Source: Deltaproteobacteria bacterium
Lineage (GTDB): Bacteria; JAUYMQ01
Direction of reading: 5' to 3'
Assembly: GCA_030698575.1 (NCBI GenBank)
Contig: JAUYMQ010000230.1
Coordinates: 1-9,736 of the forward strand
DNA length: 9,736 nt
Shown: positions 1 through 5,951 of the stretch, piece after piece
How the letters are laid out: each line of letters begins with the position of its first letter
How positions within the stretch are numbered: the stretch's first letter is position 1
The notes under the pieces: model-generated
Database searches by the model: none
Told to the model about the DNA's origin: nothing
The model's input: the letters and a program-made list of their open reading frames with translations, nothing else
Made by a program: the position numbers and the translations under genes

Positions 1-219
1 CTCGACGACGGAAACCACGGCGGGCTCGGGATCGGACTCTCGCTCGTCCGATCGATCGTGGATCTTCACGGAGGGCGAACCTGGTCCGAGAGCCCCGGCC
101 GGCTCACGGACGGTACACAGACCCGGGGCGCTTCCTTCTATTTCACCATCCCGCTGCCCGTCCCCGAGGAGGCGTCGCGGTCCGGCACGCCGACCGAGAC
201 CCCTCACGCCGGCGCGTAA
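1..219 (+). CDS. Sensor histidine kinase, C-terminal end (partial, 5' end outside window)
   Basis: Frame 1 is open from the left edge to a TAA at 217-219 and gives 72 residues. It contains the glycine-rich end of a HATPase_c ATP-binding domain, [18 protein letters not shown] at about residues 9-26. It then runs through a strand-like stretch to a closing FYFTIPLP, where kinases usually show GSxFxxxLP. This is the G2 box and end of the catalytic domain that phosphorylates the kinase's own histidine. The dimerisation and sensor parts lie upstream and cannot be judged. About 15 residues rich in E, S, T and P follow the domain, and no receiver domain is fused at this end. The gene points rightwards and converges on the GAF-GGDEF gene; its last 16 bases overlap that gene's 3' end. 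The histidine kinase call is firm from the motif; the signal and partner are unknown. Confidence 0.9.
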
Positions 220-1289
220 AGTGTCACGCAGTTCTTCCCGAGCGCCTTCGATTGGTACATCGCCGCGTCCGCCTCCCGCAAAAGCTGCTCCTTCCCCCCT
301 CCGTCGCCAAGCCGCGAAAGGCTCTGCACGCCGACGCTCGCCGTAACGCAGCCCGCGATGGCGTGCGCAGCAACCATCCGGCTCGACTCGGCCAGGAAGA
401 CGAAATCTTCGATGCTCTTGCGCACCGTTCCCCCCACCGCCATCGCCTCTTCAGGCCCCGTCCCCGGCAGGATCACCACGAACTCGTCTCCGCCGTAGCG
501 GGCCAGCGTGGCCTCAGGCGCCGTGACCACGCGCGCAAGCAACCTCCCCGTCTCGTGAAGCGTGCGGCTTCCGGCAAGGTGCCCGAAGCGATCGTTCACG
601 CTCTTGAAGTTGTCGAGATCGAAGAAGACGACGGAAAGGTCGCGATCGTCCCCGCGCGCCGCCACGATCTCGTCCTCGAGGTGGTGGTGGAACCAGCGGT
701 CGTTGAACAGCCCCGTCAGATCGTCGCGCCGGGCCATCTCGTTGAACAGCCGCGCGTCGAGGATGTTCCGGATCGAGGTGGAAATGTAGCTGGCGAAGAT
801 CTCGAGCAGGCCCATCTCGGCTTCGCTGAAGCGCTTCACCTCGCGCCGGTTCAGAAGCTCGATGACGCCCAGGATCTCCCGGTCGATGCGAATGGGAACG
901 CAGATGATCGAGCGCGTGGGGAATCCGATAGCCGCCGCGAACTCCTTGGCGAAAAAGGCGTCTTCGTTGACTTCCCGGCTGATGTACGACTTGCCCGACT
1001 GAAGGGTCTGACCGACAATTCCCTCGGCGGCCGAGATGCTCCGTCCGAGCAGGTCCGCTGATTTTTCTCCGAAGCTCGTGACGAATACGAGGCGGCCTGC
1101 GCCGCCAGCGGCGCCGGCCGGATCTAGCAGCAGGATCGAGCCCGCCTCCGACGGAACGAACTCGTTGGCCTTGGCGAGGATCTGGCAAAAAAACGTGTCG
1201 AGATCGGCGCCCGCCTCGAGATCGCGCTCGCCCTGGAGGCCCTCGAGGAATCGGGTGATTTCCCTGCCTTCCAGTGAACGAAGATCCAT
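204..1289 (-). CDS. GAF-GGDEF cyclic dinucleotide synthase, likely hybrid promiscuous (cGAMP) type
   Basis: A 361-residue soluble protein without signal peptide or membrane segments. Residues about 28-175 form a GAF sensor domain (note GVIELLNR at 141-148). A short helical linker leads to a GGDEF domain at about 185-361, with DDLTGLFN at 189-196, the metal aspartate D224 in FFDLDNFK, N232, GHLAGS at 236-241 and the intact GGDEF signature at 266-270. In classical diguanylate cyclases the residue after GHxxG is an aspartate that binds guanine (PleD Asp344). Here it is Ser241, as in the Hypr enzymes such as Geobacter GacA, which accept ATP as well as GTP and make 3',3'-cGAMP. The RxxD inhibitory site is absent: residues 257-260 read APEA. 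The ATG at 1289 is chosen because the frame upstream runs into rpe and is not GAF-like; a modest GAGG lies 8-9 bases before it. It follows rpe by 61 bp and may be cotranscribed. The nucleotide product is inferred, not shown. Confidence 0.93.
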
Positions 1290-1350: not shown

Positions 1351-2040
1351 TCAGGATTTCCCGAGCTGCTCCCGCATGGCCGCGATCGTGCCGCGGTAAT
1401 CCTTGCTGTCGAAGACCGCCGAGCCCGCCACGAAGACATCCCCTCCCGCGCGGGCGATTTCGGCGATGTTGTCGGTCTTGACGCCGCCGTCCACCTCGAT
1501 GTCGACAGAGAGCCCGTCGGCATCGATGCGATCCCGAAGTGAGCGGATCTTCTGGAGCACGGCGGAGATGAACTTCTGCCCCCCGAAGCCGGGGTTCACG
1601 GTCATCAGCAGGACGAAGTCAACGTCACCCAGCACCACGTCGATGACCGAGAGCGGCGTTCCGGGATTGAGGGCGACGCCCGCGCGCGCTCCCGATTCCT
1701 TTATCTGCTGAACCGTCCGGTGGAGGTGCGTGCAGGCCTCGGCGTGAACGCTGATCCAGTCAGCGCCCGCCTTCCGGAACTCTTCGACGTAACGCTCAGG
1801 GCGCTCGATCATCAGGTGGACGTCGAGGGGAAGATCGGTCACGCGGTCGAGGCAGGCGACCACCGGCTGCCCGAGGGTGATGTTGGGCACGAAATGGCCG
1901 TCCATGACGTCCACGTGGATGAGATCGGCCCCCGCCCCGGCCACCGCGCTCACCTCCTCGGCGAGTTGCGAAAAATCGGCCGAGAGAATGCTGGGGGCAA
2001 TGCGCCCTGCCGGCCGCGGCCTCGCCTTGCTTCCGCCCAT
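1351..2040 (-). CDS. rpe: Ribulose-phosphate 3-epimerase
   Basis: A 229-residue cytoplasmic TIM-barrel enzyme that interconverts D-ribulose 5-phosphate and D-xylulose 5-phosphate in the pentose phosphate and Calvin pathways. The family signatures are all present: IAPSILSADF at 14-23, HVDVMDGHFVPN at 42-53 (metal and acid-base residues H42 and D44), DVHLMIE at 73-79 (H75), the phosphate-binding NPGFGGQKF at 149-157, and EVDGG at 182-186 with the second catalytic aspartate D184. The length is normal, apart from about 10 extra residues before the conserved start of the barrel. The ATG shares one base with the TGA of rsmB (TGATG), and a very strong purine-rich ribosome site lies inside the rsmB 3' end, so the two genes are probably translationally coupled. 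No Calvin-cycle genes are visible here, so a general pentose phosphate role is the simplest reading. Confidence 0.98.
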   Translation of the reverse strand: MGGSKARPRPAGRIAPSILSADFSQLAEEVSAVAGAGADLIHVDVMDGHFVPNITLGQPVVACLDRVTDLPLDVHLMIERPERYVEEFRKAGADWISVHAEACTHLHRTVQQIKESGARAGVALNPGTPLSVIDVVLGDVDFVLLMTVNPGFGGQKFISAVLQKIRSLRDRIDADGLSVDIEVDGGVKTDNIAEIARAGGDVFVAGSAVFDSKDYRGTIAAMREQLGKS

Positions 2041-5888: not shown

Positions 5889-5951
5889 ATGTCATTGCGA
5901 GGGGCACCCATTCGCATGTCATTGCGAGGAGCGCAGCGACGAAGCAATCTC
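5889..5951. repeat. Dispersed CATTGCGAG-type palindromic repeat, one full and one partial copy
   Basis: The plus strand has ATGTCATTGCGAGG at 5889-5902 and again at 5916-5929, a 14-base direct repeat 27 bases apart. Only the second copy continues into the full element (5916-5951), bounded by ATTGC (5921-5925) and its inverted GCAAT (5944-5948), with a small CGC-A-GCG inverted centre. A third fragment, ATGTCATT, lies at 5879-5886. From memory, near-identical elements are widely scattered in intergenic regions of Deltaproteobacteria, Nitrospirae, Chloroflexi and metagenomic bacteria, where they behave like REP or MITE-type repeats of unknown function. Here it lies between the def ribosome site and the priA end, so it would be in the def leader if the candidate promoter is used. 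Confidence 0.75.

Follow-up and report, generated by a model that had tools for sequence, protein, structure and literature searches.

A GAF-GGDEF protein with a selectivity serine and a cross-dimer aspartate belongs to a conserved subfamily of predicted Hypr-type cyclases

The closest described systems are the hybrid promiscuous (Hypr) GGDEF enzymes GacA of Geobacter (GSU1658; GmGacA, PDB entry 6d9m; PMC6456294) and Bd0367 of Bdellovibrio (PMC9140294), which carry Ser at the nucleobase selectivity position (S214 in Bd0367). The substitutions S347D in GacA and S214D in Bd0367 turn them into c-di-GMP makers (PMC6456294, PMC9140294). GGDEFs with Ser or Thr at this position (Hypr) represent 0.17% of all GGDEF domains (PMC9140294), and the work on GacA found Ser there only together with a GGDE[F/Y] motif (PMC6456294). 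The GacA structure paper described a second specificity position, the cross-dimer residue: 94% of predicted diguanylate cyclases have Arg there, and GmGacA has Tyr304 (PMC6456294). Arg at this position drives products toward c-di-GMP, and cGAMP is the main product of Hypr enzymes that have Tyr, Ser, Ala or Gln instead; Asp is not among the residue states reported for assayed Hypr enzymes (PMC6456294).

We analysed a window of 9,736 nucleotides, a contig (JAUYMQ010000230.1) of a deltaproteobacterial genome (G000) of 4.13 Mb in 653 contigs, with 91.6% completeness and 4.6% contamination. On its minus strand, at 204..1289, an intact ORF encodes a GAF-GGDEF protein of 361 aa (P0001), which the ORF, Pfam matches and trees identify as a Ser-type (Hypr-like) cyclase. 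The GAF sensor domain covers approximately residues 28-174 (768..1208, minus strand, computed from the residue numbers) and matches PF13185 (E 9e-14) and PF01590 (E 9e-13), while the GGDEF catalytic domain occupies residues 187-353 (231..731, minus strand; PF00990, E 9e-34). Given that the matches of the closest homologues start at residues 2-6 of P0001, the ATG at 1289 is favoured over a longer ORF of 439 aa that overlaps rpe. The gene closes a same-strand run, priA-def-fmt-M48 protease-rsmB-rpe, and lies 61 bp downstream of rpe (ribulose-phosphate 3-epimerase; 1351..2040, minus strand; PF00834); considering the spacing, the shared strand and the position at the end of the run, rpe and the cyclase gene are probably co-transcribed. 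On the opposite strand, the C-terminus of a histidine kinase, truncated at the contig end, converges on the cyclase gene. Two partial copies of the REP-like element TGTCATTGCGAGGAGCGNAGCGACGAAGCAATCTC are located at 5889-5951, between def and priA; this element has 63 copies in the genome at ≤3 mismatches, against 0 for the reversed control.

The codon at 567-569 reads gct on the plus strand and AGC on the minus strand, encoding Ser241. In alignments that are gapless around both specificity sites, this residue stands opposite Ser348 of GmGacA (GHLVGSQVL), D344 of PleD (GHDIGDEVL) and the corresponding Asp of WspR (GHVAGDEAL), which bears out the preliminary description, where a Ser had been placed at the position of PleD Asp344. 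The same holds for the catalytic residues that it listed as intact, D224, N232 and the GGDEF motif at residues 266-270 (480..494, minus strand), and the pairing of Ser241 with GGDEF rather than GGEEF fits the partner rule. The best PDB sequence match of P0001 is the Hypr domain of GmGacA (6d9m; E 6e-28, 101.5 bits), followed by a WspR fusion (92 bits) and PleD (85 bits). P0001 shares with PleD and WspR the GGDEF fold, the catalytic Asp, the Asn and the GG(D/E)EF motif, but PleD and WspR have Asp at the selectivity site and Arg at the cross-dimer site.

The cross-dimer residue of P0001 is Asp197 (699..701, minus strand; aligned following PMC6456294). Thus, like GacA, P0001 combines a selectivity Ser and a GGDEF motif with a non-Arg cross-dimer residue, and the PDB entry likewise names GmGacA as GAF-containing. 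The two enzymes nevertheless differ in that GacA has a receiver domain, a cross-dimer Tyr and an I-site, whereas P0001 lacks the receiver domain and, in the degenerate loop that precedes RYGGDEF (498..521, minus strand), has no RxxD. Bd0367 also differs from P0001 in keeping its I-site (R260; PMC9140294).

To place these residues in a wider context, we surveyed 290 genomes drawn across the domain and read the residues of 29 relatives, one per genome, outside G000; the set searched contained no second genome from the phylum of G000. The selectivity residue was Ser in 23 of the 29, so Ser-type GAF-GGDEFs occur in at least 23 of the 290 genomes, and the preliminary remark that the cGAMP pathway is described in few lineages understates the spread of the sequence signature. 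Two of these relatives (L088 and L103) share an NDR...GHxAGS signature with P0001, and 16 more came from searching the phylum of G082, all with the cross-dimer Asp and the selectivity Ser. P0001 and these 18 relatives, which are 34-49% identical to it, constitute a subfamily; 17 of the relatives belong to the phylum of G082 (L088, L119-L134) and one to that of G149 (L103). They have the same domains as P0001, and Ser241, Asp197 and the GGDEF motif are strictly kept in 19/19 members, none of which has an RxxD at the I-site position (0/19), indicating that the inhibitory site has been lost. Asp197 is what sets the subfamily apart, as other Ser-type enzymes mostly have Ser, Thr or Ala at the cross-dimer site. 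In a set of 105 rows, Arg occupied this site in none of the 28 Ser enzymes vs 58 of the 70 Asp enzymes, and 27 of the 28 Ser enzymes had GGDE[F/Y]; both counts match the prediction of the Goldilocks model proposed for GacA (PMC6456294). A genome-contig scan detected no selectivity Ser among the GGDEFs of 46 loci (L002-L047). Given this, and the conservation of the residue in all 18 other subfamily members, Ser241 is, judging from sequence, no stray substitution. No published description of an Asp197/Ser241 subfamily was found in the open-access literature, a scope that leaves aside the 2016 survey of Hypr enzymes. This conserved subfamily, with its cross-dimer Asp and without an I-site, is apparently an untested side branch of the Hypr-type enzymes.

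The gene neighbourhoods of the relatives are unlike that of P0001 and vary, featuring a glutamine synthetase-like gene, a MoxR/DUF58/VWA-like cluster (recognized by eye) or fmt-rsmB. There is no conserved operon around the subfamily gene, and the comparison of the relatives' neighbourhoods yielded no conserved neighbour that would name a cGAMP effector. In two other genomes (L159, L164), fmt and rsmB homologues occur no more than ~7 kb from the subfamily gene, as in the window, although in a different order.

Phylogenies of the GAF and GGDEF regions were built after removing both trait columns. In the first tree, the subfamily was recovered with a support of 100/100 inside a Ser-type clade of 53 rows (48 Ser, 5 other; 98/90) that is separate from nearly all Asp-type GAF-GGDEFs; two long-branched Ser rows of G000 (C335 and C287) fell outside this clade. 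In a second tree, most long branches were removed, GmGacA, PleD and WspR were included through their GGDEF domains only, and Bd0367 was left out. Here GmGacA was located inside the Ser-type clade (53 rows, 98/95), PleD and WspR were located outside, and P0001 stayed within its subfamily (100/99). On sequence, then, P0001 does not belong to a classical diguanylate cyclase clade, in line with what had been proposed for it. A tree of GGDEF domains only gave little resolution. An AU test of the arrangement with canonical enzymes and the subfamily on one side returned p 0.34; this split also fits the subfamily branching first in a single Ser clade, so the value speaks neither for nor against convergence. 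An independent-pairs test of Ser against non-Arg offered too few contrasts. The exceptions at the selectivity site within the Ser-type clade are Gly (L093, L105 and L147), Arg (L091) and Ala (L146), and most of these proteins carry GGDEY. Given these exceptions in the wider clade, Ser need not imply the use of ATP in every member.

Taken together, P0001 appears to be a GAF-regulated, feedback-insensitive Hypr-type cyclase that probably makes cGAMP together with c-di-GMP, and we put the probability that cGAMP is a substantial product at about 0.6. We infer cGAMP synthesis for an enzyme whose activity is itself predicted and whose cross-dimer residue is Asp; the acceptance of ATP and GTP, and the pair of products, are suggested by the mutagenesis of GacA and Bd0367. 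P0001 would work in the cytosol as a dimeric Hypr-type GAF-GGDEF cyclase, with Ser241 forming a hydrogen bond with either guanine or adenine, so that both ATP and GTP can bind. Glu269 of one subunit would activate the 3'-OH of the nucleotide held by the other subunit, giving 3',3'-cGAMP and some c-di-GMP as the main products, and the GAF domain may gate the dimer. Lacking an I-site, the enzyme would escape the product inhibition by c-di-GMP to which GacA and Bd0367 are subject. Asp197, which replaces the guanine-favouring Arg, may contact the amino groups of the partner base and thereby tune the product mix. The preliminary description had gone further and considered that the organism probably uses cGAMP signalling, but a pathway at that level does not follow from one enzyme, given that Hypr enzymes also make c-di-GMP.

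The main rival is an enzyme that makes only or mainly c-di-GMP, in which Ser is tolerated beside GGDEF and Asp197 is of no help to ATP. It has precedents: an engineered D-to-S GSU3350 was still a pure diguanylate cyclase, and Arg-bearing Hypr enzymes lean to c-di-GMP (PMC6456294). The riboswitches of these genomes bear on the same question, since an A at the equivalent of Vc2 G20 (G20A) leads to cGAMP binding (PMC6274999, PMC9262584). A search of G000 with RF01051 detected one GEMM-I aptamer (C487:350-434, L001; 60.6 bits), which has G and not A at this equivalent (model position 11, a mapping assigned in this analysis) and is thus of the c-di-GMP type, a point in favour of this rival. The ligand-choosing base is likewise G in five aptamers from four further genomes that carry the subfamily, so the six GEMM-I aptamers of these five genomes give no sign of a GEMM-Ib regulon, and the suggested check for cGAMP riboswitches returned only G-type aptamers. 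The lack of a GEMM-Ib regulon is nonetheless no argument against cGAMP synthesis, and further cGAMP sensors are expected in other bacteria (PMC8835794). Considering that the guanine-favouring Arg is missing and Ser strictly kept throughout the subfamily, and that P0001 shares a clade with GmGacA, we regard a mere c-di-GMP producer as unlikely, albeit worth keeping in mind. Of the five aptamers outside G000, two, located in two genomes with the Asp/Ser GAF-GGDEF subfamily, are of the Rfam variant c-di-GMP-I-GGC (RF03167; L148 and L150). After the C487 aptamer come a terminator-like stretch containing a T run and a small ORF (511-855) with a CxC...CxxC pattern.

Another alternative, which we consider improbable, is that the Asp197/Ser241 pair tilts P0001 toward c-di-AMP or another purine dinucleotide. 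The cross-dimer Asp is a subfamily hallmark for which the reported Hypr enzymes offer no characterized precedent, Hypr enzymes can use further purine NTPs (PMC6456294), and some c-di-AMP is among the products of Bd0367 (PMC9140294). No DAC-domain synthase was seen in 3 of the 19 subfamily-bearing genomes; however, the other 16, including G000, already encode a DAC-domain c-di-AMP synthase, which does not favour this alternative, and nothing in the sequence of P0001 excludes GTP. Slightly less probable still is a non-catalytic GGDEF, degenerate or of the receptor type: P0001 has a fairly long terminal branch within the subfamily, but its catalytic Asp, its Asn and its GGDEF motif are all in place, the motif is kept in 19/19 members, and the degenerate GGDEFs of the same genome (C239 and C635) look quite different.

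Besides P0001, the genome encodes four HD-GYP domains, and a selectivity Ser is present in 4 of its 15 GGDEF matches (P0001, C304, C335 and C287), compared with the published 0.17% of GGDEF domains for Hypr types; assuming a clean assembly, one organism thus carries four Ser GGDEFs. The C304 protein (L115, G000:C304:9244-9714) is a GAF-GGDEF with Ser at both the cross-dimer and the selectivity sites and an intact RxxD, close to the general GAF-GGDEF Ser type, and is, from its sequence, a more conventional Hypr candidate than P0001. The C335 protein (L116, G000:C335:20925-21392) has a cross-dimer Thr, a selectivity Ser and an intact RxxD, and its long N-terminus is by eye receiver-like and GAF-like; in the poorly resolved GGDEF-domain-only tree, its GGDEF domain clusters with GmGacA. 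The C287 protein (L117, G000:C287:6757-7233), a Ser-type GAF-GGDEF, combines a cross-dimer His and a selectivity Ser with GGDQF. Because Gln replaces the general-base Glu, and Glu-to-Gln at the fourth GGDEF residue kills GacA (PMC6456294), this protein is probably inactive, perhaps a receptor.

Returning to P0001 as a probable cGAMP and c-di-GMP producer, we tentatively propose, at odds somewhat below even, that the I-site-less Asp197/Ser241 subfamily constitutes a separate class of cyclic dinucleotide synthases present in at least three phyla. In this class, the acidic cross-dimer residue would determine the product, cGAMP or a different dinucleotide with adenine, made without being curbed by c-di-GMP and read by receptors other than GEMM-Ib riboswitches. 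If so, the range of cGAMP-capable GGDEF enzymes would extend well past Geobacter, Myxococcus and Bdellovibrio and take in many phyla that have received little study. The subfamily would then provide a natural test of the role of the cross-dimer residue in product choice, its Asp being set against the Tyr, Ser, Ala or Arg of other enzymes. This would also point to cGAMP receptors besides GEMM-Ib riboswitches, as suggested for other bacteria (PMC8835794).
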